Assembly: GCF_032854445.1 (NCBI RefSeq) | Contig: NC_088296.1 | Span: 24,311,604-24,375,603 of the forward strand | DNA length: 64,000 nt | Origin: Liolophura sinensis | Taxonomy: Eukaryota > Mollusca > Polyplacophora > Chitonida > Chitonidae | Direction: 5' to 3' | Shown: positions 2,684 to 64,000 of the stretch, piece after piece | How the letters are laid out: the number at the start of each line of letters is the position of its first letter | How positions within the stretch are numbered: the first letter of the stretch is position 1 | Made by a program: the position numbers and the translations under genes | The notes under the pieces: generated by a model | Database searches by the model: none | Seen by the model: the letters and a program-made list of their open reading frames with translations, nothing else | What the model was told of the DNA's origin: nothing

Positions 2684-2872
2684 TCAAGTGTTGTGTTTGT
2701 GAAGAAAATCATAGAATTTTTGACTTTCCTACTTTCAAGGACCCAAACGTAGACTAATGCGTGAAGGAACACCAAGTGTTTTTCGTGTCTGGATCGGGAG
2801 TATACTTTTTCGGATTGTCGATCGAAGAAGAAATACACGAAGGAAGGGCGTACTCGCTTCCATTGCATTCTC

Positions 2873-4500: not shown

Positions 4501-4509
4501 AGGCCTAGC

Positions 4510-4763
4510 CAGAATTGACAATTGGCGTAATTGACCGACAAAATTAAATCTAGCTAACGATCTTAGCAGAGGTATATCGGTTGCTGAGATCAATGGTAGA
4601 TGGTAGATTTTCTTCGCCAACGAGAAGCCAGCCAATGTGATAAAAACCCCAAGTGATAACACTGAAAAGAGACGGCCAAAGCCAGTATATGTTGCAGTAC
4701 GTATGGACCCAATCATCGACTCATGTAGGTACTCCAGCTGGCAACGACTAGTCCGGGTAACTG
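4510..4763 (+). pseudogene. Post-RNase H linker of BEL/Pao
   Basis: The reading frame across 4555-4755 contains ANDLSRGISVAEI, KTPSDNTEKRRPKPVYVAV and SSWQRL. This matches the order of the conserved 'NPADLxSRG ... W ... SW-RL' linker between RNase H and integrase of BEL/Pao proteins. The integrase that should follow is missing and the right LTR begins instead. Confidence 0.6.
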
Positions 4764-4765
4764 CG

Positions 4766-5089
4766 CACTGATCAGTGTTGCAGACGGCTGGCACTGCTGC
4801 AGTGTAAGAAACTTGTACATTTTGTGGAGTAAATTACGCTGTTTATTTACGTATACATTCAAACTGACTATTATTTGATTTAACTACATATTATGTAGTA
4901 CACGCGCGTGCGATGTGCATTTCATTTAATTCCGTATCACTGTTTTGATATACTGTATTTCTGCATTTTTACGGAACTGATAAGCAGCTGCCGAACTGTC
5001 TGTCACGTCGTGCACGCTGAATAAACAGCTCCGGAAATATTCTCGCCTGTTGCGCATTTTGTATCAGTCAGGATTATCCGTTTCAGCCA
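4766..5089 (+). repeat. Right LTR of the BEL/Pao element (shortened)
   Basis: Direct repeat of 753-1362 in the same orientation. It starts at GCACTGATC and ends at GATTATCCGTTTCAGCCA. It is about 325 bp against about 610 bp in the left copy, and diverged, so the insertion is old. Confidence 0.75.
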
Positions 5090-30794: not shown

Positions 30795-30884
30795 TTCGTC
30801 GACACTAGCACCTTTCTTCACGAGTAGAGCGGCGATGTCAAAATGACACTTCTGAACTGCAATGTGCAGAGTCGTCCATTCATT
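30795..30884 (-). pseudogene. Ankyrin-repeat exon-like segment, 3'-most of the cluster
   Basis: Minus-strand translation reads NEWTTLHIAVQKCHFDIAAL then LVKKGASVDELG. This fits one ankyrin repeat ('G-TPLH-A---GH--IV--LL-KGA-V'). The acceptor that should read CCACAG, as in sister exons, reads CCACAT here. No GT donor is seen at the expected end. Ankyrin repeats are protein-binding scaffolds; partner unknown. Probably a dead exon. Confidence 0.65.
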
Positions 30885-31017
30885 ATGTGGAAGAAAATGA
30901 CAGTGTATCACACAAACATTACGTCTTTTATATAGAAAAATGAAAACTGTGTCTAACACATGTCTACCTATTACTGATGTTGTTGTTTTGGTGTGTTTTT
31001 TTCACTGATTTATATGT

Positions 31018-33150: not shown

Positions 33151-34064
33151 CTGTGGATAGCAACAGCAGCTTATCAAAGAATCCACCTCGTTTCCATGCA
33201 TTAATAGCTCCTGCGACCAAGTCTGTGAATTCAACGTAAGAGTTAGAAAATGAGTTGTGAACAAAATCAGAAGATAGAAATATGACATGTTAGATTCAAC
33301 TCAGCTGCTCTTAAAAGGTCACATTTTTTGACGATATTCCCTTATTCTTAATTCTGTCGTTTGCGTGAAAAAATTAAATATAAGACTAGCAAAAAAGTCG
33401 ACTATCGCCAATTTAATGGAGTACATCTTTCATTTCAATCCAAAAATTCCACCAGATTATCTTTCCCCGGACCATGCCGAGAGAGGCTGATTCGAATTTA
33501 ACATGGCCGTTGTCAAAGTCTGGCTTGCCATATAAGTGCAAGGTACACTTTTTTTCAATTTGGCATTATTTTCTTTATTATTCACAAGTCAATGCGTGCT
33601 ATGGAGACAAAAGCATGAACAGACACGTGTTTTGTTCTGTGAACATTTTCGGATTTATGGTGAGGATACATACAGTACACAAGAATGAGTTCCAGTCTGG
33701 TGAATATAAACATTTGGAGTGACGTCAGATTATACCCTGTCTGTTATGGTCTAGGGTTTTCCCCGACACTGCCCGGTTTCCTCCCACCGTAATTCTGGAG
33801 GCCCTTGTAGGCTACAAGTGAACTATTCTTAAGTACGGTGTAAACCACCAATCACTCTATGGATCAAAGGTCTCTCTCCTGATGCCAACTTTATTTGCGA
33901 GCCTTTTAAAAACCACCGCGAGGTGGTTTGGCTGTTGAATTTATTCATCCTAAAATCCGATTAAAATCTCCAGTAATAACCTACACAATATTACTGTAAC
34001 ATTATTGCTAATAAATTCCTTTTCTTGGCATGAAGATAAAACCAGAAGTAACCAGAAAAAGCTT
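33151..34064. other. Non-coding, with a SINE-A fragment
   Basis: 33765-33855 is a diverged reverse SINE-A (GCCCGGTTTCCTCCCACCGT, TATTCTTAAGTACGGTGTAA). No gene seen. Confidence 0.5.
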
Positions 34065-34153
34065 GTCAGTATTTTGTCAGTACATTGACATCGGCACCCT
34101 TCTTCTCTAACATGACCACTCAGAGCTGCTGAATGTAAAGGCGTGAACCCCCG
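34065..34153 (-). pseudogene. Ankyrin-repeat exon with internal frameshift
   Basis: After an intact acceptor (CCCACAG), the minus strand reads RGFTPLHSAALSGHV, then continues in a different frame as VMLEKKGADVNVLT. The two halves together make most of one ankyrin repeat, so bases are missing between them. The expected donor position lacks GT. Confidence 0.7.
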
Positions 34154-34949
34154 CTGTGGGTTGTAGCACGGATGCGTCACACTCATTATTCCTTATTTTA
34201 ACAAATGCATCTGGTTCCGTGGCTTCAAGTTATGAGGACGAAACCGAACATTATTTTAATGTAGCTTGCATCTTTTAAAGAGATACATTGCCGACGGGTA
34301 AAAAAATTGGGCTGCTATTTCAAACGCCATCTAGATGTAGATAAGGTTAAGATTTCCAAACGTCCACTGATATTTATCTGCCTTTGAGTGGACAATCGAA
34401 TATCCATGGATTCCCATCGAACATCAAGGCACTCAAGTCGCTATATTTAGAAACATGTCTGAGAATTAACTTTCTTACTTTATTATTTAAATTACGAATA
34501 CTTTATAATATATCATCGATAGAGAGGAAGACACTTTACTAGACATACTGTTCGCTTTAAATCTGTCATATTGTTAACTCGAAAGAGTCATGCATTGTGC
34601 GAATCGTTATGCTGTCTCATATGCATATTATCTCGACGGGATGACAGTTAGACCAGTGGCGAATTTCCCCTTAGCATTCTCTTCATTTTTCGAAAAATAC
34701 AGGCCCAATGCGTTTGGTTAGGAATCAAATGCAACTCATATTTGTATTTGTATATGTCCCAGTATAGAATCATTTTATACAGATGTATCAAGTAGACGGA
34801 GACGTAAATATTATCACTTGGCGCCACTAAGTGTACGTGATGATATACAAAGAAGTACCAAAACAAATGTTTTCTCCATCTAGCAATAAAGTTTTAGTGA
34901 CACAGCTAAGCAATCGAAAATTTTACTTTTACAGTTGTACACGTATATT
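34154..34949. other. Non-coding stretch
   Basis: No gene or repeat recognised. Confidence 0.4.
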
Positions 34950-41688: not shown

Positions 41689-41884
41689 GTTGATATACAT
41701 TGATATCATTTCATTTCAAAGGTTTTGTGTATGTTGTACAGGGATTCACATTTTTCTTCAATAGAGGCTTCCCACTGTGTTCCAGGTTCATTAATTAACG
41801 TCTCGACTTTGTCTCTGATGATTTAGGCGATAAGACGGGTGCTGCTCCATGACATGATGAATAAACAATATGCAATCATAAGTC
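41689..41884. other. Spacer
   Basis: Unique sequence, no gene seen. Confidence 0.35.
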
Positions 41885-41992
41885 ACTGACTTTGTCTGTG
41901 CATTGACGTGGGCCCATTTCTCGTACAACAGATAAACAACATAAACACTGTCTCCAAGAACTGCCCTGTGCAAAAACGTGCACCCGTCACAG
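41885..41992 (-). CDS. Ankyrin-repeat exon, 5'-most of the cluster seen
   Basis: The minus strand reads DGCTFLHRAVLGDSVYVVYL then LYEKWAHVNAQTK, one ankyrin repeat with G-to-W at the conserved 'KGA' position. The donor AAA|GTCAGT is plausible. No AG acceptor is visible at the position used by sister exons. No promoter or start exon found upstream. Confidence 0.55.
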
Positions 41993-42568
41993 TTATATCA
42001 CTCTGATTATCTGCTAGAATAACATGTGAAGCGTGACCTTTGACTTGGTGGCATTTAGTTGTATTACACAAGTATTTGTTGTGCTGCGCAAATAGGCCTA
42101 CTTAAATATTGCTCCTAATCACAGAGGAAAAGAAATATTGTATAGATCGAAAAGATGGCACAAAGCAGTACATCTGAATAATTATGGGCATAAATGTACA
42201 GAACAATTGTATAGAACGAATTTGTGCTTACTGAACGAAACAAAAAGAACAGCAATGTGATGTTTTTGGAATAATAAAAAAGCAAATGTCATCAGAAGCG
42301 ATCAAAATAATGTATTCAGTGTTTAGCCCTCGGTACAGCTTTGTGAGCGTGGTGAATTTAACACAGTAGAAATGCTGATCACGTGATTACATTTCTGTCC
42401 CCTAACATCTGGGTGCCATGTACAGCCACGTCTCTTTAACTGTAAAATGAAGATGAAAAAGTTGTTCCATACATGGTTGTTTGATGATTTAGTTCGGATT
42501 GACACATTGATGGAAACGCCGTTTTCTCAAGATTGGATGTCTGTCTTGAATTTGCCACTTCACTGTAC
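41993..42568. other. Non-coding stretch
   Basis: No gene recognised. A minus frame at 42323-42505 matches nothing I know. Confidence 0.4.
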
Positions 42569-46806: not shown

Positions 46807-46984
46807 GGCTGAAATGATCTTGGACCAGTACAGACAGAAAGCCCAGCTGTATAAGAATGATATTTTACCGGTGCCTTTGGGAGACGACTTTAGATATGAC
46901 AAACCTGATGAATGGGACAACCATTTCAACAACTACCAGAGGCTGTTTGATCATATCAATGGTAGACCAGAGTTAAATGCTAAG
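46807..46984 (+). CDS. MAN2A: MAN2A exon with the GDDFRY catalytic segment
   Basis: Acceptor TTTTCGCAG, then one base completing a split codon, then [30 protein letters not shown] and [20 protein letters not shown]. The GDDF Asp corresponds to the acid/base of GH38 class II enzymes (family knowledge). Ends AAT GCT AAG|GTAAGT in phase 0, matching the phase-0 start of the exon at 47718. Its 3' half and donor are tandemly copied downstream. Confidence 0.92.
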
Positions 46985-49900
46985 GTAAGTCCTATATTGT
47001 ATAGTGGACCTCAGATATAACAAACCTGATGAATGGGACAACCAGTTCAACAACTACCAGAGGCTGTTTGATCATATCAATGGTAGACCAGAGTTAAATG
47101 CTAAGGTAAGTCCTATATTGTATAGTGGACCTCAGATATAACAAACCTGATGAATGGGACAACCAGTTCAACAACTACCAGAGGCTGTTTGATCATATCA
47201 ATGGTAGACCAGAGTTAAATGCTAAGGTAAGTCCTATATTGTATAGTGGACCTCAGATATAACAAACCTGATGAATGGGATAACCAGTTTAACAACTACC
47301 AGTGGCTGTTTGATCATATCAGTGCTAGACCAGAGTTAAATGCTGAGGTAAGTCACATGTTGTACAGTGGACCTCAGATATAACAAACCTGATGAATGGG
47401 ACAACCAGTTCAACAACTACCAGAGGCTGTTTGATCATATCAATGGTAGACCAGAGTTAAATGCTGAGGTAAGTCATGTGTTGTATAGTGGACCTCAGAT
47501 ATAACAAACCTGATGAATGGGACAACCAGTTCAACAACTACCAGAGGCTGTTTGATCATATCAGTGGTAGAGCAGGGTTAAATGCTTATATTGTATTAAA
47601 AGTCCTATATTGTATAGTGGACCTGAGATGCGACAAGCCCCATTAATGGAACATCCAGTCCCCCTAGAAACCCAATCAGTATTTCAGTTTGACAGGCAAT
47701 TTCTTTTCTACCTTCAGCTGCAATTTGTTACCCTGAAGGACTTTTTCAATGCTGTGGCACAGAGATCTCAGCTCGAACCTGAAGACGATTTTTTGCCCAA
47801 GGACTACCCTGTGCTGAGAGGGGATTTGTTCACATATTCTGATCGTGAGGACCACTACTGGAGCGGCTATTTCTCCTCACGCCCCTTCCACAAAAGTCTA
47901 GACAGGATCACGGAGTACCATTTGAGGTGAAGTGTCTCTGTTGTCTGTATACAAATGGTTTAAATGATGTGTATAATGCGTGCTCTCTTCAGAAGACAGG
48001 TACAGCTGCTTGGTGTGATGGTTTCCTCTCGGGTTCCTGCATGTATGAACATTTTGACTGATATAGTGTTGAAGTATTCTGGATTCGTGTGGCATGAGAT
48101 AACAGTTGTACTGTAGGCCTGGAAATGATTTTTAAGCTGGTACATGATATAATGGCAAATCTTCCAGCTTTTTACATTCTGAAAAAAGTTAGGGTTATAA
48201 GCATGGGGGTTTTGTCCTGTGACAAACAGTCGGTCCCTGTCAAAATAATACTTGTTGCAGGACATTTCCGGCTGCTGGTTGAATGAATGAATGAACGAAT
48301 GACACCTGACTGCTTATTGAATGAATGAATGAATGAATGAGTGAAGGCATGAAACCTGACTGCATTTATTGAAGAAATAAAGAATGAAGTAAACAGTTCT
48401 GGATAGGGGAGACGGGTAATGTCTGGTCTACACATTCTTCAGATGAAGCAGTGTTTCTACAACTAGTTTGCTTGAGTAGATAAAGAGATAGATATTACAG
48501 TTGGATACGTTGGATGTATATATACACCTGTGTGTTGAAGTGCAACATTGTTTGTCATAACATACATGATCTAGGAGTTATCTCCCCTTTGCTTACAATA
48601 TCAAAGAAAATAAAGATACAGCTACATGTATATCAGGACAGGATCTGCTTAGCACCCATGTACATGAGGACAGGATCTGCTTAACACCCATGTACATCAG
48701 GACAGGATCTACTTAGTGCACATGTATATCAGGACAGGATCTGTTTAGCACCCATGTACATCAGGACAGGATCTGCTTAGTGCACATGTATATCAGGACA
48801 GGATCTGCTTAGTGCACATGTATATCAGGACAGGATCTGCTTAGCACCCATGTACATCAGGACAGGATCTACTTAGTGCACATGTATATCAGGACAGGAT
48901 CTGCTTAGTGCACATGTATATCAGTACAGGATCTGCTTAGTGCACATGTACATCAGGACAGGATCTACTTAGCACCCATGTATATCGGGATAGGATGTGC
49001 TTAACACCCATGTACATCAGGACAGGATCTGCTTAGTGCACATGTATATCAGGACAGGATCTGCTTAGCACCCATGTACATCAGGACAGGATCTGCTTAG
49101 TGCACATGTACATCAGGACAGGATCTACTTAGCACCCATGTATATCGGGATAGGATCTGCTTAACACCCATGTATATCAGGATAGGATCTGCTTAACACC
49201 CATGTACATTGGGACAGGATCTGTTTAGCGCACATGTATATTGGGACAGGATCTGCTTAGCACCTATGTATATCAGGACAGGATCTGCTTAGCACCCATG
49301 TACATCGGGACAGGATCTACTTAGCACCCATGTACATTGGGACAGGATCTGCTTAGTGCACATGTGTATCAGGACAGGATCTGTTTAGCACCCATGTAGG
49401 ATCTGCTTAGCACCTATGTATATCGGGACAGGATCTGCTTAGCACCTATGTATATCAGGGCAGGATCTGCTTAGCACCCATGTATATCGGGATAGGATCT
49501 GCTTAGCACCCATGTGTATTTGTGTGGATGCAGTCTTGGCCTTTGAGAGGAATGTTTACTGTTCTCTCCCAACACAGTTCTTGGGCCTTGATGAAGATAA
49601 GCTTGTTATGCCACCCGTGTGGCAGTTTGTGCAGTTCAACCTTTGTTAATGAGCACTTTTTAGCGACCAATATGTTGTGTGTCTGTACATCACACGTGAA
49701 AAAGTTCATCTTTACATGTGACATCTTGTAGCTGGTTTGCTCCATCCGTTAAACTGACTGCCCTCTTATAAATGGAAACATCATAGGAGGCCTTGTGCTA
49801 GCAATCAGCCTTATTATGAGCAGTTGTGACTCATAAAAACTCCTTATAATAACTTCTCCTAAAACATTTTCATAAAAACAAATGAGTCAGCGAAAAGGAA

Positions 49901-52900
49901 ATAAACTCTCATTTTTTCAGAGCTGAAGAAATTGCCGTCTCCTTAGCCATGGCTTATGTTCGTAAATTGGTGTAAACATTTTCCGTCGGAACCTGTGGTG
50001 AAGAAGGTGTCTGTTCGCAGTAGTTTGGTGGTGTGAACAGTTTCCCGTCAGAACCTGTGGTGAAGAAGGTGTCTGTTCGCAGTAGTTTGGTGGTGCGAAC
50101 AGTTTCTTGTCAGAACCTGTGGTGAAGAAGGTGTCTGCTCGCAGTAGTTTGGTGGTGTGAACAGTTTCCCGTCAGAACCTGTGGTGAAGAAGGTGTCTGT
50201 TCGCAGTAGTTTGGTGGTGTGAACAGTTTCCCGTCAGAACCTGTGGTGAAGAAGGTGTCTGTTCGCAGTAGTTTGGTGGTGCGAACAGTTTTCCGTCAGA
50301 ACCTGTGGTGAAGAAGGTGTCTGTTCGCAGTAGTTTGTTGGTGCGAACAGTTTCCCGTCAGAACCTGTGGTGAAGAAGGTGTCTGTTCGCAGTAGTTTGG
50401 TGGTGTGAACAGTTTTCCCGTCAGAACCTGTGGTGAAGAAGGTGTCTGTTCGCAGTAGTTTGGTGGTGTGAACAGTTTTCCTGTCAGAACCTGTGGTGAA
50501 GAAGGTGTCTGCTCGCAGTAGTTTGGTGGTGTGAACAGTTTCCCGTCAGAACCTGTGGTGAAGAAGGTGTCTGTTCGCAGTAGTTTGGTGGTGCGAACAG
50601 TTTCTTGTCAGAACCTGTGGTGAAGAAGGTGTCTGCTCGCAGTAGTTTGGTGGTGTGAACAGTTTCCCGTCAGAACCTGTGGTGAAGAAGGTGTCTGTTC
50701 GCAGTAGTTTGGTGGTGTGAACAGTTTCCCGTCAGAACCTGTGGTGAAGAAGGTGTCTGTTCGCAGTAGTTTGGTGGTGCGAACAGTTTCCCGTCAGAAC
50801 CTGTGGTGAAGAAGGTGTCTGTTCGCAGTAGTTTGGTGGTGTGAACAGTTTCCCGTCAGAACCTGTGGTGAAGAAGGTGTCTGTTCGCAGTAGTTTGGTG
50901 GTGCGAACAGTTTCTTGTCAGAACCTGTGGTGAAGAAGGTGTCTGCTCGCAGTAGTTTGGTGGTGTGAACAGTTTCCCGTCAGAACCTGTGGTGAAGAAG
51001 GTGTCTGTTCGCAGTAGTTTGGTGGTGTGAACAGTTTCCCGTCAGAACCTGTGGTGAAGAAGGTGTCTGTTCGCAGTAGTTTGGTGGTGCGAACAGTTTC
51101 CCGTCAGAACCTGTGGTGAAGAAGGTGTCTGTTCGCAGTAGTTTGGTGGTGTGAACAGTTTCCCGTCAAAACCTGTGGTGAAGAAGGTGTCTGTTCGCAG
51201 TAGTTTGGTGGTGTGAACAGTTTCCCGTCAGAACCTGTGGTGAAGAAGGTGTCTGTTTGCAGTAGTTTGTTGGTGCGAACAGTTTCCCGTCAGAACCTGT
51301 GGTGAAGAAGGTGTCTGTTCGCAGTAGTTTGGTGGTGTGAACAGTTTTCCCGTCAGAACCTGTGGTGAAGAAGGTGTCTGCTCGCAGTAGTTTGGTGGTG
51401 TGAACAGTTTTCCTGTCAGAACCTGTGGTGAAGAAGGTGTCTGCTCGCAGTAGTTTGGTGGTGTGAACAGTTTCCTGTCAGAACCTGTGGTGAAGAAGGT
51501 GTCTGTTCGCAGTAGTTTGGTGGTGTGAACAGTTTCCCATCAGAACCTGTGGTGAAGAAGGTGTCTGTTCGCAGTAGTTTGGTGGTGTGAACAGTTTTCC
51601 TGTCAGAACCTGTGGTGAAGAAGGTGTCTGCTCGCAGTAGTTTGGTGGTGTGAACAGTTTCCTGTCAGAACCTGTGGTGAAGAAGGTGTCTGTTCGCAGT
51701 AGTTTGGTGGTGTGAACAGTTTCCCATCAGAACCTGTGGTGAAGAAGGTGTCTGTTCGCAGTAGTTTGGTGGTGTGAACAGTTTTCCCGTCAGAACCTGT
51801 GGTGAAGTAGGTGTCTGCTCGCAGTAGTTTGGTGGTGTGAACAGTTTCCCGTCAGAACCTGTGGTGAAGAAGGTGTCTGCTCGCAGTTGTTTAGGGCTGT
51901 ACCAACATCATGACGGAATTACTGGCACTGCCAAGGACTTTGTGGTGGTGGACTGTGGGAAAAAGTGAGTGTAACATGTGCATGTAGTATGACCTTTCTG
52001 GCGGAAGCAGTTGGGGAGCTTTTCTTTTGCCTCTGCAGAGCAGTGTGATTATCTGCTTAGTTTTTGTTTATAGTGTATAATCTCGTAACAAGAATTTTCC
52101 GAATGTGACTACAGAGTTAATGAAGCACATTTTTATCAGTATAGCCATAAGCTGATTAGCTTCAGAACTACAGTGAAGTACTTTCTTTTTTTGTGTGGAA
52201 CTAATTTTCGCGGATTTCGCGGTGACCAGTTTACTAGTTTACCAGGAAAATTAATCCCAGCAAAAAAATGTCCCAATATTGAATCATATACTACTGGTAG
52301 TAGTGATAAGGAAGTGAAATCTTTGCCAGGGTGACGGAAGTTGTGCTGAGAAAGGCCGATGGGACGGCTAAATTTTTTGAGAGCAGTGAAGGGAAATTAT
52401 GATCACGAAGTTTAAATATATACAAACTCTGGTGCTGTCGTGGTGGTTATAAAACAAAGTGGGAGTTTATTCGTCTTTAGTTTGATCAATTGTCGCTATG
52501 CCCGCAAAGTGAAAGAAAAGTAGATACTAGCATGTGCTGGCTTCTGATGAATGTCACTCTGATACACGCTATCCCATTGGCTGTGTCTCTCCTGTGGTCC
52601 AATGAGTGAGCTTCTGACAAACTGTGAAGTGTGTACAATAACACAATGGCTGTTTGACATCCACAGCAATGTTTGCACTTTCTGACCTGTTACAGAGGAC
52701 GATTAAAACTGAAAACAATGCAAAACTTCCCATGTTGCTTGATAAAGAATGAGTGACCGGTGCCGATAATGGGGTGAATTTATATGTTTTTGCATTGAAC
52801 TGTTCAAAAAGGTGAGAGGTGACTTTGCCAGGTGTTTAAAAGTACTCATCAATGATTTGAAAAGAAGTGACACCTATTTGAGTACTGCTTACGGTAGGTG

Positions 52901-55900
52901 CGAAAGTAATCTTTTTATGTAGTGATAATCTATCCCCCGTTGGTTTAATCTCTGATCCAGATCACGAGGATTAGTGACACTGCAGGAAACAAAAGAGGAT
53001 TAAAACTACCCATGATGATACTTGTTTCACGTGCTTGAATAATTTCAGCCATATTATATCTCGGAAAATTTTAAGATTTGTTTTTCAGTATTCTCTTAAA
53101 TACGCGGAAATTAATTCCTGTAAACATATTTTTGAACAAAATCCACAAAAATAAATTCCAGCGAATAATAAGTACTTTACAGTATTCTCTTTACCAGTGA
53201 GGTTGATGGTTCAAATCTAGCTAGCTTCTTTTGTTTCAGCTACAGCTTGTTACTTGTTTATAGTGAGGTTTTTGTCACCTGTAAAGCTGATCACTGTCTT
53301 ACAAATGAAATATTCTGAAGTTCAGTGTGAAACACCAACAAATAAATCAGTTATATACAAGTATCTTTACATAATTCTGGGAGCTCCAGCAATGACTGCA
53401 GATATTGAAATTTTAATATTTGTTTGTCTTAAAGTCTCCATATGAATATTATGAGAGATGGACAGAGAGGTAAAGTCATCATCACATGAGGGGTCAGACT
53501 CAAACCCAAGTATGTTTGGCTCAGATGAGGTCTCTTGCCCACACGTACAAGACTGACCAGTTAATGCCTAACTGATGATTGGTACACAGATATGAGATAA
53601 TATTGCCACATTTTGATTGACTTTATTATATTCCCCCTCCTAATTAGGGAGGACATTTTGCGATTGCTTTTTCCGTCCATCTGTGTGTTCGTGCGTGCTT
53701 TCTTCTTCTCTTTGTGTATGGTTGCTCTACATGAGTACCTCATTCATTTTGTTGATGACTTATTGCTTGTTTGTTTTATGTCTTTTGTCTTCAGGTTGCT
53801 GAAAGCCAGGATGATTGTGGAATATGCCTATTTACTCATGATGTCCGACAGGAAAAGCTACTCCTATCAGGAATTAAGGTCTTTATTTAATATTGTAAGT
53901 TTCAGGAGTGAAAACAGATGGGATAAATGGTTGATCTCAGTCTAAATATTTAACTATTCAAGCACAAAGATCGAGGCATGATAAGTCAGATGCAACTGAC
54001 CAATCAAAAGACACCTCAAAATAATCTTTGACATATCATGAATTGTGAGGGAAAACAGCTCACAAGTCAAATCCAACTTTTTGTCAGTCCAACGTATATC
54101 AAAACACAGCTATTGCAAGTAGAACATTAATAAATGATTGATTTATTTATTTGATGTGAGTTTTATGCCCGTCTCCAGAATATTTTACTTGTATGACTTC
54201 AGCCAACATTACGGTGAGAGGAAACCAGGCAGAGCCCAGGGGAAAAGCAACGACCATCCGCAGGCTGCTGGAAGACCTTCCCATGTACGGCCATTAATAA
54301 ATGAAGGTGAATAGAATGGGTGCTGCTATGGAACCTGTAGCACCAGTATTGCTGACTTGGTGGATTTATCAGTTTCCTGGATGTTCAGCTGGTGGGATAT
54401 CATTTGTTCTGTTCCCAAACTCTGGTCGAAATGTAGATTTATGCACAAAGTAAATATGATTGGGCCGGTGTTGTGATACCCGACTTGAAATCAACTAAAA
54501 CCCTGTTTTGGCCACATCCACTAAACCTTTTCTCAGTCTAACCCTGCTGAGCCTTCTACTGTGTATATCTCCCAGCTACTTGTGTGACTTTACCTGTCCT
54601 GAAGATGACCTATTCAATTTTGTTGAAATATTGAAATGTCAAATGTGCGACTTATCAGTTTTTTATCAGAGTTTTTATGCTTTTTGCATTATGCAAATAG
54701 GAGCTAAATACCACCGTTTGTTTGTACCATAGTATGCATATAATGCTATTGTAGATTCCTAATGAGAATACGAGCTGAAAACTAAACTGCTGTGAATTAG
54801 TTATGCCAGTGTACGGATTGATGTGTAGGAGAGAATGATAGGCCTGTTTGTGGTCATTACACTGTAAATAGTGCGCTGTCCGTCGGTCAGTCTGTGATGT
54901 GTGTTAAACGTTAAACACCAGGTGGTTTGCTGATTGGCTAATCCTTTATTAATTGTAAAGCCTTGAACAATTTTCATCCAAATACATACAGGACATAGTC
55001 CAGCGTAAATCTAAGTACATGAGCGTATTCAACTCCTAAGAATCTCTTCCCACCATAATCCGCCATCGTATAAGTGAAGTATTCTAGAGAATGGTGTAAA
55101 ACACCACTCAAATAAATAAATAAATAAACCCATGAGACACTTAGTCAACCAGCTACCTGGCCCTGAATATGTGTTCGAGAACTTGTATACGTATCTTAGA
55201 CAATGTCAGAATGTACAGCGTGCGGAGAAATCCACTCTCCTCAAATTTGTTGCAGAAGGATACAGTTTGATGAGATAAAAGAAAATATACAATATACACA
55301 TTCAGATTGTATTATAGAGTGTAAATTTTTGTTTAATTGTATTGTTTTAGGATGAATACAGAATGTCCCATGATTCAATGCCAGAGAAGACAGTTCTGCG
55401 ATTGAGTAACCCAGACACAGTAAGTACATGCTACTTGCGCCTGGTGAGGACAGGTTAGGAGTTATCCTCCCCTGTCTGTGATCTCAAAGTTATGCTGGGC
55501 TAAACATGGGGTATACCTCACACTCCTGAACTCTGCTGCCCAGGGCTGGTTTGATGTCTTTGTTCAGTGTCTGTTAAACTGGTGAACTTGAACAAGAAGT
55601 TTGTCTGTATTTGATAAGATATATGCATATCAAGTTTGGCCTGCCACATGCAGTGAGTGCCATCTAAAACCAGAGCCTTGTAGAAGACCTTGGCTGTTGC
55701 TTGATTGTGTAAGGAGTTATCTCCCATGTGGGTATTTGTCGGCACAAAATATCAGTAATGCAAAAGGTAAGAGTTACTCTCTGGTGTGACTGTTGTACGG
55801 AACATGGCCTTGTATAGGTGGTGGTGACAGAGTGTTACATTGCAACCCAATCTCCGATGATGTGACAACCTGAAATGATCAGACATTGTGAATTGTCTTC

Positions 55901-58900
55901 AATGTATTAAATAAGGGGCCAGTTTCATGAAGCTTACTTAGTGTTAAGTTGCCCTCATCTCTGCAACATACGGTACCATGTTAGTTATGGGCTTACTTAG
56001 CTAAGTGAGCTTTATGAAACCAGCCCCTGGTACCTGATTGTATCATGCTTAGCCAAAACATGCTTTTATATTTGCTTTGAAACAAGGAAATCCACACATA
56101 TAAGGGAAGATCAGTGATAGGCTGAAAATGCCCTGGCGGAAGTACACATGCCAAAATGCCATTGGCTGTGGAAAGATTTGGTTCCTGAAGATTTCTATAC
56201 ATGTATGCACAGCAATGGTGATTGTGAAGCCTATAGCACAGAAACAATCTTGCTGACAGGAAGATGGGGAGGAACAAGGGTGATTGTGAACCCTATAGCG
56301 CAGTATCAATCTTGCTGACAGGAAGATGGGGAAGGACAAGGGTGATTGTGAAGCCTATAGCGCAGTATCAATCTTGCTGACAGGAAAATGGGGAAGAACA
56401 AGGGTGATTGTGAAGCCTATAGCGCAGTATCAATCTTGCTGACAGGAAGATGGGGAAGGACAAGGGTGATTGTGAAGCCTATAGCGCAGTATCAATCTTG
56501 CTGACAGGAAGATGGGGAAGGACAAGGGTGATTGTGAAGCCTATAGGGCAGTATCAATCTTGCTGACAGGAAGATCCCTCTATAAGAACAACTCAACACT
56601 GTCAACACTTTATTGATGTATTTCACATGAATGTGTCACATTCTGAGACTTTTCATACTGTCTATTCCGCGTTTGTCACAAATAATGTTATGTTGCTGTA
56701 ATTGTTATTTTGTTGCTTATTTCACAGAGCAGTTTTGTTTTACAATTCCCTGGCACAACAGAGGGAGCAGCTAGTAACAGTGTACACCAACTCTTCATGT
56801 GAAGGTGACCAACTATTCATGTGAAGGTGAAAAACCCAGAGGGAGCAGTCATTACTTCTCAGGCAGATGCCTTCTGGTGCACTGACCATGAAATATCAAC
56901 AGACAAGTCAAAGATAAGTAAGTAAAACTGGCTGACATCATGTAAGACATCATCTGTAAGATTTCAGATCTACACCTGTACTGTACAAACTGCCAATGAT
57001 TATAACAAAGATTTCAGATCTACACCTGTACTGTAAGAGCTGCCAATGATTATAACAAAGATTTCAGATCTACATCTGTACTGTATGAGCTGCCAATCAT
57101 TATAACAAAGCTTTCAGATCTACACCTGTACTGTACAAGCTGCCATTCATTATAACAAAGATTTCAGATATACACCTGTACTGTATGAGCTGCCAATCAT
57201 TATAACAAAGCTTTCAGATCTACACCTGTACTGTACAAGCTGCCATTCATTATAACAAAGATTTCAGATATACACCTGTACTCTATGAGCTGCCAATCAT
57301 TATAACAAAGCTTTCAGATCTACACCTGTACTGTACAAGCTGCCATTCATTATAACAAAGATTTCAGATATACACCTGTACTTTATGAGCTGCCAATCAT
57401 TATAACAAAGCTTTCAGATCTACACCTGTACTGTACAATCTGCCAATCATTATAACAAAGACTTCAGATATACACCTGTACTGTACGAGCTGCCAATCAT
57501 TATAACAAAGATTTCAGATCTACACCTGTACTGTACAAGCTGCCAATCATTATAACAAAGCTTTCAGATGTACACCTGTACTGTACAATCTGCCAATCAT
57601 TATAACAAAGACGTCAGATATACACCTGTACTGTATGAGCTGCCAATCATTATAACAAAGATTTCAGATCTACACCTGTACTGTACAAGCTGCCAATCAT
57701 TATAACAAAGCTTTCAGATCTACACCTGTACTGTACAATCTGCCAATGATTATAACAAAGACGTCAGATATACACCTGTACTGTATGAGCTGCCAATCAT
57801 TATAACAAAGATTTCAGATACACACCTGTACTGTACAAGCTGCCAATGATTATAACAAAGATTTCAGATCTACATCTGTACTGTACGCGCTGCCAATGAT
57901 TATAACAAAGACGTCAGATCTACACCTGTACTGTACGAGCTGCCAATCATTATAACAAAGATTTCAGATCTACACCTGTACTGTACAAGCTGCCATTCAT
58001 TATAACAAAGATTTCAGATCTACACCTGTACTGTACAATCTGCCAATGATTATAACAAAGACGTCAGATCTACACCTGTACTGTACGAGCTGCCAATCAT
58101 TATAACAAAGATTTCAGATCTACACCTGTACTGTACAAGCTGGCATTCATTATGAAGAAGATTTCAGATCTACACCTGTACTGTACAAGCTGCCAATTGT
58201 TGTATCAAATCCATCAAACTGCATTCTCTGTATTTGTGTTTATTAACAATACTGGAGTTACTTCCCCTGATTACAGGTTACATTTACTCCTGACTAAGTG
58301 TGTCTGTTATTCATAACCATGATTTCTTGCTGTGCATGGAAAGACCCAAGCTCAGCTTGGGTCTGACACCAGGAGGAGATGTTGTTTGTGAATCTTGCTC
58401 CTGCTACATGTGTGTGTGGCTCAGCTCAGCTTGGGTCTGACATCAGGAGGTTTGTCAGGTATATTCATTAACACTGTGGTATTTCACATAACTTGGCTTA
58501 ATCCTGGCTGATAACACATGTAGAGCTGAAGTACAGGTATGTCTGGCTGATAACACATGTAAAGATGAAATACAGGTATGTCTGGCTGATAACACATGTA
58601 GAGATGAAATACAGGTATGTCTGGCTGATAACACATGTGAAGATGAAGTACAGGTATGTCTGGCTGATAACACATGTAGAGATGAAGTACAGGCATGTCT
58701 GACTGATAACACATGTAGAGATGAGGTACAGGTATGTCTGGCTGATAACACATGTAGAGATGAACTACAGGTATGTCTGGCTGATAACACATGTAGAGAT
58801 GAAGTACAGGTATGCCTGGCTGACAATGCATATAGAGATGAAGTACATGTACGTCTGGCTGATAACACATGTAGAGATGAAGCACAGGTATGTCTGGCTG

Positions 58901-61900
58901 ATAAGACATGTAGAGATGAAGTGCAGGTATGTCTGGCTGATAACACTTGTAGAGATGAAGTGCAGGTATGTCTGGCTGATAACACATGTAGAGCTGAAGT
59001 ACAGGTATGTCTGGCTGATAACACATGTAGAGATGAAGTACAGGTATGCTAGACCACAGTGTAAAATAACAGTCAAGATATAATACATTTATTTGTTTTT
59101 TGTCAGTGATGTTGAAATTTAATATTTCTTTCCTGCCCAGCATGTTTTGAAGGTATTTAACAAAGTGCAGTCATTGATGCTAGGTACATGTGATTGTGTG
59201 AACAATTGAATTTTCTGATGTACATGTATATTATACATCTGACTCGCTTTTCAGAGGACCTTTTGGTATCGACATGAAGAATCCTGAACATTTTTCTGTG
59301 GAGAACTCTCAGCTGAGGGGAGATAGTAGTGGTGAAACAGGGATGCTAACAGTACGTATATGTACCTTCCCATGATGTCCGTTACACAGATAATAAACGG
59401 GGCTGCTAACAGTACGTATATGTACCTTCCCATGATGTCTGTTACACAGATAATAAACGGGGCTGCTGGCAGTACGTATATGTACCTTCCCATGATGTCC
59501 GTTACACAGACAATAAACGGGGCTGCTAACAGCACGTATATGTACCTTCCCATGGTGTCCCTTACACAGATAATAAACGGGGCTGCTGACAGTACGTATA
59601 TGTACCTTCCCATGATGTCCGTTACACAGATAATAAACAGGGCTGCTAACAGCACGTATATGTACCTTCCCATGATGTCCGTTACACAGAAAATAAACGG
59701 GTCTGCTAACAGTACGTATATGTACCTTCCCATGATGTCCCTTACACAGCTAATAAACAGGGCTGCTAACAGTACTTAAATGTACCTTTCCATGATGTCC
59801 CTTACACAGATAATAAACGGGGCTGCTGACAGTACGTATATGTACCTTCCCATGATGTCCGTTACACAGATAATAAACAGGGCTGCTAACAGCACGTATA
59901 TGTACCTTCCCATGATGTCCGTTACACAGATAATAAACGGGGCTGCTAACAGCACATATATGTACCTTCCCATGATGTCCCTTACACAGATAATAAACGG
60001 GGCTGCTGACAGTACGTATATGTACCTTCCCATGATGTCCGTTACACAGATAATAAACAGGGCTGCTAACAGCACGTATATGTACCTTCCCATGATGTCC
60101 GTTACACAGAAAATAAACGGGTCTGCTAACAGTACGTATATGTACCTTCCCATGATGTCCCTTACACAGCTAATAAACGGGGCTGCTAACAGTACTTAAA
60201 TGTACCTTTCCATGATGTCCGGTACACAGATAATAAACGGGGCTGCTAACAGAACGTATATGTACCTTCCCATGGTGTCCCTTATACAGATAATAAATGG
60301 GGCTGCTAACAGTATGTATATGTATCTTTCCATGATGTCCGGTACACAGATAATAAACGGGGCTGCTAACAGTATGTCTGTGTACCTTCCCATGATGGTC
60401 GTTACACAGATAATAAACGGGGTTGCTAACAGTACATATATGTACCTTCCCATGATGTCCGTTACACAGATAATAAACTGGGCGGCTAACAGTACGTATA
60501 TGTACCTTCCCATGATGGTCGTTACACAGATAATAAACGGTGCTCCTAACAGTACGTATATGTACCTTCCCATGATGTCCGTTACACAGATAATAAACAG
60601 GGCTGCTTACAGTACGTCTATGTACCTACCTATGATGTCCGTTACACAGATAATAAACAGGGCTGCTAACAGTACGTATATGTACCTTCCCATGATGTCC
60701 GTTACACAGATAATGAAAAAGTTATTTTCATTGTACAAGACTGATTACAACTGCAAGACTGCCAAAAATATATATTCATATATTTCAGAAGAGAGAAATC
60801 AGCATCGTTCAGTGTACATGCCCTTAAATCCGGCGTTGATCATAATTTTGGTGGATTCAGAATTTTTAAACGAATTTGTGATTATTAGGAGATTATTAAG
60901 AGCATTAGGTGTGCTGATCTTGCCATCAATTGACCAAGTTCAGGAGAAAACAGTGAATATTTTTTAGTTTGCATTAGTAAGTATGCTGAGGCTTTGAATG
61001 GCTTTTTTTGGTCACTTTGTGTGTTAAGCACACTCCTTCAGAGCAAAGGTTTAATCTGAAGTTTGTGGGTAATTTCCGAATAATTTTAAGATGAGAATGT
61101 GACTGATGGCTCCCCTGATGCTACGGGTTGTTGGCTAACTAGTAGAGCTTCTTTACCAGGTTCACTGAAGACAGTCTGATATCATATGTCATCACCTAGC
61201 CAAATGGCACCATTTGAACTAATCCAAAGTTTTGATTCCTTCCCTGAACAGTCTGTGACATCAAAGGAGGACAATGTAAAACACCAGATTCAGCTGAGTT
61301 TTGTCATGTATGGGGTAAAGATGGCAAAGGAAAAAGCGGGGCCTACCTCTTCTTAACAGATGGGGAGGTGTAGGTAAAGTAAAAAAAGCCCTTAACAAAT
61401 AACTATGGCACTAACCAAATAAAAATGACACTAACCAAGTAACTACAACACCGATTGAATAACTATAACATAATTACTGCAACCTGTGAATGGCCGTGGG
61501 TTACCCCCAGGCTCTGCCCGGACTCATTCCTTTATAACGCTGGCCACCATCGTATAAATGAAATCCTTCTTCAACATTTTCATCTTCCTCTGTTACCAAT
61601 ATTTTGAAACAATATGGAGGGTACAGAAATAATTTGCACAGTTTTATGAAACTTGCATCTTAAGTGACGCAGACTAGTCATTCTTAGCATCATTTTCATA
61701 ATAATTGTGGGCATAAATTCTACTTAAAAAAAAATGGTTGTAAAGGTGGAAGTTTTACAGTATTCTTGAGTATGACATAAAGCACCAATCAAGTAAATAG
61801 GTAAATAAATGACACACATATTCTAGTGAGCTACTGTAATTTGGGGGTTGTTCTCCAGAGCTGTGCAGTTCTTGAATTACCTCCCCTGTTCACAACTCCT

Positions 61901-64000
61901 CTATGTAGAGTCATCCTGAAAACCATGTCTGTGTACTGACACTTCTAAATACACATCAGACACAATCATTCTACCCTTGTGCAGTGCTTTGAGATTGCCT
62001 TAACATCTCTGCATTATTTGTCAAGATACAAAGGTGCATGTATATGTAAAGAAATACATCCAGACAAGTGGGGAATACATACCCTAATTCCTCAACCTTT
62101 TCTCAAATGAAAGAGAAACTTTCAGAGCAATTTTTGCATGTTTATGATTTTGGAGATTTTATTTTAAAGACAAAACTATATAAGTTGAATTGGCCCTTTT
62201 CAGGGCTTCACAAAAAGTATAATTTTATCAGTCTACTCAGAATAATGCCTTCAGAATATGCTTGAATAAACACCTTGCAAACATTGGAAAAGGTTGAAGA
62301 GTTACAATAAGCAAGGGCCCTTTTACTTAAACAGTCTTAAACAAAATGTGCATGAAAAAATTACAATTTTGACAACAATTGGTGTTTTAGGAGTAAGGTA
62401 CAGTATTCAGCTTCAAAGATTTTATTTTGTACTGAAGATTAAGGCTTTGGACTTCAAATTGAACATATTTTCTTTTTTTCTTTTTCAGTCCGTTGCAGTA
62501 TTCAAGCCGTTTATCCGTGTTTTAAGGGGCCCATTGATGTCAGAGTTCAAGGTCATGCTGTCTAATGTTGAACATGTGGTCAGGCTACAGAACTCACCAG
62601 GTAAAGGGTCTTTCATAAATATCTGCCAGGAAATCCACAGAGTATTTGGTTTTGTGTTCATATTGGCTACTCTTACACCTTAATATTTCTGGGGAAATAC
62701 TGATGTTTCACCCAGGATAGAGCCTATTGTAAGATGTACCAGGGAAGTATAAAAATACAATAATATCTTTATTTATCAAAGGTAGCTCGGTCAATTTACA
62801 ATGAAATTGTTCTTCCCCAAGACTTTCACAGAGAAAACAGTATATAGGAAACATGTATTTCAGAGTGCAAGGGAAAAAATACAAAAATATATGTAAAACA
62901 AGATAAAGCATTGTGTAGTTTGAAAAGAAAAACTACATACGTTCATACATAGAAGAGCAACAAAGTGGTGTTATGGTTGCCCTTCAAATTTAAATCGGCT
63001 ACAGGGATAATAGAGACATTCAAAATGAAGTCATATTAACTCAGGAAAGTTTCAGGGGCAAATGTCTGGGGGAAAAAAAGATGAAAGTTTCATATTTGTC
63101 AAGTTATAGTATGAAGGTCTTAGGGGTTATTTCTTTCAAACCTGTGCTGCGTTATACCCCTATAGCCAAGCTAACTGTACAAATATACTGACCCCAGAAA
63201 TATCTATATCCAGTCCCTGATCAGCTGTGTGACTACAGGTTGTAATACAACTTCTTGTATGGATCAATCCTGATATAAATATTTACAATACACCTCCCCC
63301 TCATTACCACACCCTTCCGCTATGAGACGTGCTCCATTAGAACACAGTTATAAATTTGTCCCCCAGATATTCACAAAGCTGTTTCTGTGCTGACATGTAT
63401 ACACTTGCAAAAGTCGCATTGTAGAAAACCTTCAAATTTTGTATCATTTTAACATTCAGGGGCTTCCAGGGTTTATATATCATTCTGGTGTTCATGTAAT
63501 TAATCAATGAAAAGCATGATATTAGCCTGATATGGCTTACAGCTAACATCCAGCATCAACCCACATCTGTCACTTATGACACTTATGACACTCACCCCCA
63601 CCCCCAACCCCAACCCCAACCCCAACCCACTGTTCCCGCCATTGTAATGAGGGACCTCATTCTTCTACCTTTTTACAGGTACAAATAGGGCCTATAAACT
63701 AAGGCCTATAAGCTCAGGCCTATAAGCTCAGGCCTATAAACTAAGGCCTATTAGCTCAGGCCTATAAACTAAGGCCTATTAGCTCAGGCCTATAAACTAA
63801 GGCCTATAAACTCAGGCCTATAAGCTCAGGCCTATAAACTAAGGCCTATAAACTCAGGCCTATAAGCTCAGGCCTATAAACTAAGGCCTATAAGCTCAGG
63901 CGTACGGTCTAGCTTATTATTCACCTGGCCCCTGTTGACAGGTACAGATGGTTCTAGTGTGGAGATTCACAACATTGTTGACATCAAGTCACAGCAGAAC
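46807..64000 (+). CDS. MAN2A: Class II (Golgi-type) alpha-mannosidase, GH38, C-terminal exons; continues past the window
   Basis: Eleven exons encode the stretch corresponding to roughly residue 430 onward of animal MAN2A1/MAN2A2, in order and on one strand. The family trims two mannoses from hybrid N-glycans in the Golgi lumen. '[13 protein letters not shown]' is of the MAN2A type, not the lysosomal MAN2B1 type. Seen here are the GDDFRY segment (acid/base Asp) and the YQHHD zinc/active-site segment. The signal anchor, HxD zinc motif and nucleophile Asp are not in the window. Most junctions agree in phase. Three frame breaks (55419/56728, within 56728-56917, and near 61316) and one apparently missing small exon between 56917 and 59255 leave open a pseudogene or assembly errors. 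Confidence 0.85.
46985..47600 (+). repeat. 121-bp tandem repeat made of exon 3' half plus splice donor
   Basis: GTAAGT donors recur at 46985, 47106, 47227, 47348 and 47469, exactly 121 bp apart. Each unit is about 95 bp of the preceding exon ([20 protein letters not shown] in frame) plus about 25 bp of intron. The first copies are almost identical to each other. The last has lost its donor. Confidence 0.95.
47718..47926 (+). CDS. MAN2A: MAN2A exon with the DHYWSGYF motif
   Basis: Strong acceptor (TTTTCTACCTTCAG). The translation has [50 protein letters not shown] and ends in HLR with a split codon (TTG AG|GTGAAG). The substrate-channel motif [12 protein letters not shown] is intact and diagnostic for MAN2A-type enzymes. 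Phase matches the exon at 49921. Confidence 0.95.
48180..48620 (+). other. Intron with a (GAAT)n microsatellite
   Basis: 48280-48345 carries runs of TGAATGAATGAATGAATG. Nothing else is recognisable. Confidence 0.6.
48622..49520. repeat. Intronic minisatellite, 32-bp unit, about 27 copies
   Basis: The unit is ATGTACATCAGGACAGGATC followed by TGCTTAGCACCC, with frequent TATATC and AGTGCAC variants. It lies wholly within the intron between exons 47718-47926 and 49921. Confidence 0.95.
49921..49961 (+). CDS. MAN2A: MAN2A short exon or exon remnant ([13 protein letters not shown])
   Basis: A strong acceptor (CATTTTTTCAG) joins in phase with the previous exon (AG|A), giving [15 protein letters not shown], which corresponds to 'LRAAEILYYFAL' of vertebrate MAN2A1. 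The frame then meets a stop (RKLV*) at the first unit of the 62-bp array. A possible donor GTTC|GTAAAT at 49962 would splice over the array. Confidence 0.7.
49962..51895. repeat. 62-bp minisatellite, about 31 copies, interrupting mannosidase coding sequence
   Basis: The unit contains AACAGTTTCCCGTCAGAACC, TGTGGTGAAGAAGGTGTCTG and TTCGCAGTAGTTTGGTGGTG. The last unit runs without a break into coding sequence ([19 protein letters not shown]). The first is fused to AYVRKLV. 62 is not a multiple of three and units hold stops, so the array cannot be translated through. Confidence 0.95.
51856..51964 (+). CDS. MAN2A: MAN2A exon with the [10 protein letters not shown] zinc/active-site motif
   Basis: The reading frame [35 protein letters not shown] aligns with the '[27 protein letters not shown]' region of MAN2A1. 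The His in HHD is a zinc ligand in the family. The 5' boundary is inferred: acceptor TTTCCCGTCAG in the last array unit gives an in-frame join with 49961 (C|AA). The end AAA AA|GTGAGT is in phase with the exon at 53795. Confidence 0.85.
51965..53794 (+). other. Intron
   Basis: No array and no recognised element, apart from a weak tRNA-like stretch near 53190-53225. Ends with TTTTGTCTTCAG. Confidence 0.55.
53795..53894 (+). CDS. MAN2A: MAN2A exon ([18 protein letters not shown])
   Basis: The first G completes the split AAG of the previous exon, giving [17 protein letters not shown] then SDRKSYSYQ. This aligns with 'GTRLFHSLMVLEKIIGNSAFLLILKDKLTY'. Ends TTT AAT ATT|GTAAGT in phase 0, which agrees with the exon at 55351. 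Confidence 0.88.
54138..54291 (+). mobile_element. SINE-A, truncated, with 13-bp target-site duplication
   Basis: Exact CATTAATAAATGA at 54125-54137 and 54292-54304. Inside are TTTATTTATTTGATGTGAGT, GAGAGGAAACCAGGCAGAGC and CATCCGCAGGCTGCTG. The tRNA-like end is missing. Confidence 0.9.
54305..55350 (+). other. Intron, with a SINE-A tail
   Basis: 55055-55125 is a reverse SINE-A 3' tail (AGAGAATGGTGTAAAACACC, then AAATAAATAAATAAA). A 74-codon frame at 54508-54732 starts with a hydrophobic stretch but has no recognisable family; I do not call it. Confidence 0.45.
55351..55419 (+). CDS. MAN2A: MAN2A exon ([19 protein letters not shown])
   Basis: Acceptor ATTGTTTTAG, 23 codons in phase 0: [20 protein letters not shown] then PDT, donor ACA|GTAAGT. 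Corresponds to 'DLKQKSQDSLPQKNIIRLSAEP' of MAN2A1. Confidence 0.9.
55915..56027. mobile_element. Palindromic MITE-like element
   Basis: Terminal inverted repeats GGGGCCAGTTTCATGAAGC and GCTTTATGAAACCAGCCCC, with TTAGCTAAGTGAGC near the right end. Same family as 19562-19690. Confidence 0.8.
56210..56575. repeat. Intronic minisatellite, 62-bp unit, 6 copies
   Basis: The unit contains GATTGTGAAGCCTATAGCGC, AGTATCAATCTTGCTGACAG and GAAGATGGGGAAGGACAAGG. Unrelated in sequence to the 62-bp array at 49962. Confidence 0.95.
56728..56917 (+). CDS. MAN2A: MAN2A exon with internal frame break
   Basis: After acceptor TTATTTCACAG, one frame reads [20 protein letters not shown] (vertebrate 'YLVVYNPLEQDRISLVSVYV'). 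It then stops. A second frame continues as [31 protein letters not shown]. The switch lies in an imperfect 22-bp duplication (AACTCTTCATGTGAAGGTGA / AACTATTCATGTGAAGGTGA). The start phase is also off by one base from the exon at 55419. Probable donor ATAA|GTAAGT. Confidence 0.8.
56970..58195. repeat. Intronic minisatellite, 50-bp unit, about 24 copies, acceptor-like
   Basis: The unit contains AAAGATTTCAGATCTACACC, TGTACTGTACAAGCTGCCAA and TCATTATAAC. Starts such as TATAACAAAG at 57001 and 57051 are 50 bp apart. Each unit carries an acceptor-like ATTTCAG|AT. Confidence 0.95.
58196..58507 (+). other. Intronic or missing-exon region
   Basis: The small exon expected between 56917 and 59255 (the 'PPLGLKVYKLL ... 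LADYVLY' part of MAN2A1) should lie in 56.9-59.2 kb. I cannot identify it with confidence. Confidence 0.4.
58508..59047. repeat. Minisatellite, 39-bp unit, about 14 copies, with CAG|GTATGT in each
   Basis: The unit is GCTGATAACACATGTAGAGA followed by TGAAGTACAGGTATGTCTG. It is open in the plus frame ([13 protein letters not shown]) and every copy contains a consensus-like donor ACAG|GTATGT. Confidence 0.95.
59255..59351 (+). CDS. MAN2A: MAN2A exon ([19 protein letters not shown])
   Basis: Acceptor GACTCGCTTTTCAG, one base, then [32 protein letters not shown]. This aligns with 'IKNMI..ITLENSFVLLRFDQTGLMKQM'. Donor CTA ACA|GTACGT is phase 0, joining correctly to the exon at 61252 (SVTSKED). 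The last ~15 bp and the donor are the first unit of the 60-bp array. Confidence 0.82.
59338..60718 (+). repeat. 60-bp minisatellite, about 23 copies, each repeating an exon end and its donor
   Basis: The unit is GGGCTGCTAACAGTACGTAT, ATGTACCTTCCCATGATGTC, CGTTACACAGATAATAAACG. The first unit begins inside the preceding exon (GGG ATG CTA ACA|GTACGT), so the array is an amplification of that exon/intron junction. Most copies keep GTACGT. Confidence 0.95.
60719..61251 (+). other. Intron
   Basis: No element recognised. Ends in CCTTCCCTGAACAG before the next exon. Confidence 0.5.
61252..61367 (+). CDS. MAN2A: MAN2A exon with a one-base frame loss
   Basis: Reads [21 protein letters not shown], then in another frame [17 protein letters not shown]. 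Together this matches 'MTKEDGK...[26 protein letters not shown]'. Length 116 (not a multiple of three) although both ends are phase 0, so one base is missing near 61316. Donor GAG|GTGTAG is weak but in phase with the exon at 62489. Confidence 0.85.
61480..61810 (-). mobile_element. SINE-A, reverse, split by ~196 bp
   Basis: 61483-61564 holds the GCCGTGGGTTACCCCCAGGC and AACGCTGGCCACCATCGTAT part. The element resumes at about 61761 with TATTCTTGAGTATGACATAA and an AAATAGGTAAATAAATG tail. Intervening 61565-61760 is not SINE. Confidence 0.7.
61811..62488 (+). other. Intron
   Basis: No recognised element. Ends in a long pyrimidine tract, TTTTTTTCTTTTTCAG. Confidence 0.5.
62489..62600 (+). CDS. 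MAN2A: MAN2A exon ([18 protein letters not shown])
   Basis: Phase 0 start; [38 protein letters not shown]. Aligns with 'PPFVRVTHGRIYSEVTCFFDHVTHRVRLYHIQG'. Ends CCA G|GTAAAG, completed by GT of the next exon. Confidence 0.92.
62601..63689 (+). other. Intron, with a C/CCCCAA low-complexity tract
   Basis: 63594-63630 is (CCCCAA)n-like low complexity. Nothing else is recognised. Confidence 0.5.
63690..63902. repeat. 14-bp tandem repeat, about 15 copies, just before an exon
   Basis: The unit is GGCCTATAAACTAA, alternating with GGCCTATAAGCTCA. It ends 40 bp before the last exon. A second acceptor-like TTTTTACAG|GTACAAATAG precedes it, resembling the real TTGACAG|GTACAGATG. Confidence 0.95.
63942..64000 (+). 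CDS. MAN2A: MAN2A exon, cut by the window end
   Basis: Acceptor CCCCTGTTGACAG; GT completes a Gly codon, then [19 protein letters not shown]. This matches 'EGQSVEVSNIVDIRKVYNRE' of MAN2A1. Continues beyond 64000. Confidence 0.92.

Follow-up and report, generated by a model that had tools for sequence, protein, structure and literature searches.

Tandem repeats that span exon–intron boundaries were described in lancelets under the name 'mirages', initially in Adh3 and then in the globin genes BflGb6 and BflGb9, and repeats in TnC and PGBD5 were likened to them (PMC3087553, PMC3902484). In the passages of these reports considered here, the mirages come from single genes and their length is unstable, while splicing appeared to be undisturbed in RT-PCR (PMC3087553, PMC3902484). 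A model in which introns are gained through tandem duplications that bring splice signals with them is outlined in one of these reports (PMC3087553), and minisatellites, some at exon–intron boundaries, are reported from human segmental-duplication genes in the portion of that study used here (De Grassi and Ciccarelli 2009, PMC2812944). An earlier note on the DNA analysed below held that no class of splice-junction repeats had been described; with the lancelet mirages and the human boundary repeats in print, that statement was wrong. A 1995 paper, going by its title, reportedly concerns a human minisatellite with multiple splice donors.

The arrays described here were found in a 64,000-nt stretch of chiton DNA (contig C2, 24311604-24375603; hereafter the window) and were followed through a genome of 609,464,459 bases in 632 contigs. 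Two of those in the window, in a dead mannosidase gene, and others in several ordinary genes appear to be mirages, a known kind of repeat in a new phylum, apparently with a bias towards splice donors.

Gene structure and arrays in the window

Part of a GH38 alpha-mannosidase is encoded by the exons at 46807-64078 (Table 1). When the following 10 kb is included, the match extends over parts of residues 352-898 of a paralogue on contig C6 that has 1086 codons and lacks introns; exon ends and donor use were derived from homology and consensus. GH47, our first guess at the family of the host gene, was rejected because the gene matches GH38. Residues 1-351 of the C6 paralogue found no match at E < 1 in the 46 kb upstream of exon 1. 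A lone GH38 N-terminal piece (profile positions 12-170) at C2:25694630-25698737 holds the part missing from this locus and its copies, and stops about where exon 1 of the copies starts; the piece and the copies are possibly one gene split by rearrangement. Long uninterrupted GH38 frames lie at C6:4312501-4315900 (1086 codons) and C11:16970026-16972362 (1095 codons), of which the C6 frame alone was read.

Table 1. Arrays and exons of the GH38 locus in window coordinates, and regions of the further copies on contig C2
Feature	Position	Strand	Copies	Remark
Exon 1	46807-46984	+		last ~93 bp in first 121-bp unit
121-bp array	46892-47629	+	6.0	straddles exon 1 donor
Exon 2	47718-47926	+		
Exon 3	49921-51964	+		contains 62-bp array; 1-bp deletion relative to D, E, F
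62-bp array	49968-51892	+	31	interior of exon 3
Exon 4	53795-53894	+		
Exon 5	55351-55419	+		
Exon 6	56728-56917	+		broken frame
50-bp array	56958-58197	+	24.8	intron 6
39-bp array	58504-59048	+	14	intron 6
Exon 7	59255-59351	+		last ~17 bp in first 60-bp unit
60-bp array	59335-60714	+	23	straddles exon 7 donor
Exon 8	61252-61373	+		
Exon 9	62489-62600	+		
14-bp array	63689-63901	+	15.2	
Exon 10	63942-64000	+		continues past the window to 64078
Copy regions besides W	C2:23185501-23211500, 23248001-23266500, 27827001-27847000, 28063501-28080500, 28295501-28317500			

All six arrays listed in the earlier note were recovered at about the same places, and two of them sit on splice junctions as it had proposed. 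The 121-bp array straddles the exon 1 donor (AAG/GTAAGT at 46984/46985), its unit holding roughly 93 bp from the end of exon 1 and then the donor with some 28 bp of intron. The 60-bp array straddles the exon 7 donor (ACA/GTACGT at 59351/59352), and its unit takes in that donor along with roughly 17 bp from the end of exon 7. In both, the unit therefore spans an exon–intron boundary, as mirage units do. The 62-bp array, said to meet its exon at the acceptor, behaves differently: the acceptor lies at 49920/49921 (TTTTTTCAG/AGCTGAAG), the array expands the interior of exon 3 and its unit crosses no exon–intron boundary.

Splice-like motifs are present in the 39-bp (CAG/GTATGT) and 50-bp (TTTCAG/A) units, but no exon edge was found at either array, both of which lie in intron 6. 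Six copies among the seven described below (W, B, C2, D, E and F) were searched with the C6 paralogue and scanned for motifs; no convincing further exon that might have given rise to these arrays emerged between exons 6 and 7, although an exon may have been lost there. Where it was called in the copies, the 39-bp array ranges from about 2 to 58 repeats, and it was called in neither E nor C1. The 14-bp array does lie beside an acceptor, ending 40 bp before that of exon 10, but the acceptor itself is outside the array.

Elsewhere in the window, minus-strand ORFs at 30738-31001, 33953-34192 and 41794-41997, with arrays of 77, 81 and 24 bp among them, look ankyrin-repeat-like in their motif, and several ORFs at about 1970-4350 resemble a retroelement polyprotein in pieces when viewed by eye.

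Segmental copies and the origin of the donor arrays

A search with the translations of the window exons, in which the best candidates were scored, revealed at least seven broken GH38 copies on one chromosome: that of the window (W) and six more (B, C1, C2, D, E and F), three near 23.19-23.26 Mb on the plus strand and three at 27.83-28.32 Mb on the minus strand. The copies are scattered across about 5 Mb and are segmental, as introns and flanks also align (pieces of 76 to 96% identity), and their array lengths vary greatly from one to the next.

Each of the seven carries at least one frame-breaking lesion in the sequence read. The 1-bp deletion in exon 3 is common to W, B, C1 and C2, and 1-bp deletions in exons 2 and 5 are common to D, E and F; exon 8 is 1 bp shorter in W and B than in C2, D, E and F. 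Exon 6 of W contains a 22-bp tandem duplication (56786-56830) and is 20 bp longer than that of B, and exon 6 was not found in D, E or F. Remaining frame lesions are private or common to fewer copies. None of the seven combines the complete N-terminal catalytic exons with the open frame of a functional GH38 gene; upstream of copies other than W, this covers the roughly 2 kb read (for copy C2, the stretch back to C1). Judged by these exons and frames, the host of the window arrays is a truncated GH38 pseudogene family.

These copies order the arrays relative to the duplication of the gene. The 121-bp array occupies the identical place in 7/7 locus copies, with 6 units in W, 8 in B, 5 each in C1, C2 and D, 4 in E and 12 in F. 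Many of these units retain splice signals of the AG/GT type seen in mirages: the donor GCTRAG/GTAAG(T/A) is found in 5/6 units of W (there as GCTRAG/GTAAGT), 8/8 of B, 3/5 of C1, 4/5 of C2, 3/5 of D, 3/4 of E and 11/12 of F. The instability in length typical of mirages is likewise present, the range of 4 to 12 copies being one between paralogues, not alleles. The 60-bp array stands at the same place in all five copies in which exon 7 was found, with repeat-finder counts of 23 (W), 11 (C2), 40 (D), 11 (E) and about 39 (F); B has neither exon 7 nor the array, and no extension of C1 as far as exon 7 was found. The shared places of both arrays suggest that they predate the split of the two copy groups, and on the same ground we infer that they are older than the spread of the locus.

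At the site of the 62-bp array, each of the six copies other than W has a single unit (65 bp in D, E and F), showing the starting state from which the array grew. In B, the two ends of the segment carry similar but not identical motifs, TTGGTG and TTGGGG, and the breakpoints lack any exact short repeat. As far as the seven copies testify, the 62-bp array is a separate, later event, an exon-interior expansion arising in the W line only.

An assembly artefact, with repeats collapsed or inflated at exon edges, might be suspected as HiFi coverage is only 14x with a mean read of 8.3 kb, according to the part of the assembly report consulted (PMC11068029). Against this, the arrays recur at corresponding positions in seven distinct loci, where they vary in length and their units have diverged, and we regard an artefact as very improbable.

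We favour reading the 121-bp and 60-bp arrays as mirages, born by tandem duplication over an exon tail, the donor and the intron start and later resized, and put the probability of this at roughly 0.8. A short segment holding all three elements would have been duplicated in tandem, and the array would then have lengthened or shortened through unequal exchange or slippage, a presumed mode of growth. Copies accumulate within the intron and leave the founding exon intact; in living genes, splicing would use one donor, probably the first, and the array would thus be tolerated. Copies of an acceptor, by comparison, would precede the used site and might perhaps be less tolerated. In the window gene, whose copies are broken, the outcome of splicing is probably of no consequence any longer, and the suggestion that such arrays persist because a single copy is used fails for this gene at present, its host being a pseudogene.

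Donors and acceptors in the window and in control genes

Arrays were counted when they had at least three copies of a unit of at least 10 bp. The whole window holds 18 (32% covered), against 7 (5.7%) in ten random 5-kb stretches, and most of the examined gene regions also exceed those stretches in array density. On a reading of pure chance, the genome is so rich in arrays that some founding units must span exon edges even with zero bias, and the window alone fits this reading. Arrays cover 42% of the 17-kb gene stretch, yet only 2/19 exon edges lie inside one, where coverage alone would give 8.0, and array ends are no nearer to edges than at random (one end within 20 bp of an edge against 0.69 expected, P = 0.50). 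Two donors fall in founding units against 0.25 expected (P = 0.026; any edge, P = 0.09), the edges used in these window tests differing from those of Table 1 by up to 50 bp at exon 10 and up to 5 bp elsewhere. The earlier note had called chance placement unlikely; the window by itself makes a weak case for that, and it is the control exons that show an excess at donors.

The controls comprised 12 gene regions (126 kb) with 65 profile-anchored exons and 25 arrays; the profiles recovered a subset of the exons, and a match interrupted by stops was scored as one exon. The first set (five GH47 genes, another GH38 gene and the GH38 N-terminal piece) was fetched before its repeats were viewed. Three of its donors are straddled against 0.44 expected (P = 0.01), a P value that is after the fact, since the donor pattern was first noticed there. 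The replication set, five CCT genes (PF00118), was chosen after the idea had formed and before repeats were viewed, by taking the most compact clusters with the most exon matches; this left out smaller clusters and a five-hit one on contig C3 (about 14 kb). Open-frame lengths, a possible hint of arrays, were visible during this selection, which was not based on them. Three donors are straddled here too, against 0.56 expected (P = 0.02).

Over all controls, arrays straddle 6/65 donors against 0.99 expected under a uniform spread of founding units across non-exon sequence (P = 0.0006), and 1/65 acceptors, again against 0.99. The straddled donors belong to the GH38 N-terminal piece (first matched exon), GH47c, GH47e, CCT2 and CCT5 (two exons), and none was straddled in 7/12 regions. 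The same anatomy thus recurs in independent genes, including two CCT chaperonin genes (three exons); a third, CCT4, was left uncounted because the exon at its donor array (3021-3960) is absent from the profile matches. Donors outnumber acceptors 8 to 1 when the window is included (P = 0.04) and 6 to 1 in the controls alone (P = 0.13), a split of few events.

Some of these calls depended on inspection by eye. GH47c was accepted because, although the called array starts about 30 bp after the donor, an exon copy of the unit lies just before it, whereas a seventh flagged donor, CCT5 358-1528 (contig C8, gene-strand coordinates), was removed because its array starts ~12 bp past the donor. For the count, a pair of overlapping arrays in CCT5 and a pair of adjoining ones in GH47c were each treated as one array. 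The GH38 N-terminal piece (C2:25694001-25699500) also has, at 4428-4555, a 63-bp acceptor-carrying duplication of 2.0 copies, below the three-copy limit; counting it together with the CCT4 array gives seven donors and two acceptors, a weaker asymmetry. In the CCT gene on contig C1, an array at 4284-4850 (gene-strand coordinates) starts about 140 bp past a donor, which is outside it.

We infer from these counts that the excess of donors over acceptors in this chiton is real. The control donors, six where 0.99 were expected, and the agreement of both sets count against placement without bias, and we consider chance possible at somewhat below even odds, the modest genome-wide signal given next being a point in its favour.

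If donors seeded arrays strongly, the octamer AGGTAAGT should stand in triple tandem far more often than other octamers. Shares of occurrences in triple tandem were therefore taken genome-wide at periods of 30-60 and 61-91; octamer matches are not independent arrays. For both ranges together, AGGTAAGT was in triple tandem in 1785/26,582 cases (6.7%), compared with 1044/29,090 (3.6%) for its reverse TGAATGGA, 396/14,184 (2.8%) for GATAGTGA and 756/16,056 (4.7%) for AGTGATAG, an excess of 1.4 to 2.4-fold. A second octamer and its reverse had been added because TGAATGGA may be inflated by TGAATG microsatellites. At periods 61-91 the shares were 4.2% for AGGTAAGT and 1.3-2.6% for the others, and at periods 30-60 they were 2.5% and 1.5-2.1%. 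The excess is diluted, since only some occurrences of AGGTAAGT are real donors, and part of it may be explained by the density of arrays in genic sequence, which would raise it. Among 55 array units, donor strength scored against shuffled units reached P <= 0.1 in 24% on the strand shown and 9% on the other; the strand shown is that of the gene in the GH38 stretch and the controls, and its choice is arbitrary for the ten random stretches and the window's left part. A bias towards donors is likely, but modest or local.

What would produce such a bias is less clear-cut. The earlier note had raised junctions as hot spots of repeat birth, which the exon-anchored test suggests and the genome-wide octamer test suggests weakly. 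Donors may be true birth hot spots, or arrays at donors may be selectively kept (e.g. as additional U1 sites in long introns), consistent with the roughly six-fold excess at anchored donors, its absence at acceptors and the larger octamer excess at periods 61-91. The octamer excess is small at periods 30-60, however, the counts are small and array-rich genic surroundings are only partly controlled, and we rate this explanation as rather unlikely. Uniform births followed by stronger selective purging of acceptor and exon-interior arrays would also yield a donor-rich set, given that donor copies fall behind the used site and acceptor copies before it. The 8 to 1 split, the intron-side position of donor-array copies and the presence of the exon-interior array in an already broken exon all point this way. 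Purging would account for a lack of acceptors but not for donors above expectation, acceptors stand at expectation (1 against 0.99), and lancelet mirages occur at both boundaries in the passages used (PMC3087553); we thus hold it to be unlikely.

More broadly, splice donors may be preferred sites of minisatellite birth or survival, with several % of introns, including those of essential genes, starting with arrays of exon tail and 5' splice site, so that the machinery would routinely pick one of 3 to about 40 near-identical donors. We offer this tentatively, as a proposition that falls short of an even chance.

Comparison with described boundary repeats

Among the literature searched, judged mostly from titles and abstract openings and including few subscription papers, no junction-repeat case from a mollusc was recognised. 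A mollusc genome with many mirages, in unrelated genes and mostly at donors, would be a natural test of donor choice among near-identical copies and would supply material for studying intron change.

Several described systems share single aspects with the chiton arrays. Minisatellite-sized arrays occur in another lophotrochozoan intron, the first of an earthworm metallothionein gene, although spanning of an exon edge is not reported in the passages at hand (PMC12783039). Duplications that create introns carry splice signals as the chiton units do, but in the published passages on that model a new intron arises in an exon (PMC3087553), whereas the chiton arrays lie at existing introns. The human splice-donor minisatellite is, by the title of the paper, a tandem array of donors as well, in a single human gene. 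The human segmental-duplication repeats resemble those of the GH38 locus in that minisatellites expanded in recently duplicated gene copies; they differ in that transcripts and new introns are reported for them, and a donor-specific pattern is absent from the passages considered (PMC2812944).

The closest likeness is to the lancelet mirages. As far as the published passages go, both are minisatellite-like duplications of a boundary with unstable copy number, and both have units of about 10 to 160 bp, many of them with splice signals (PMC3087553, PMC3902484). They differ in that the lancelet repeats occur at both boundaries and those of the chiton mostly at donors, and in that the host in the window is a pseudogene; the lancelet cases were also followed by RT-PCR, while the chiton arrays are known from genome sequence alone.
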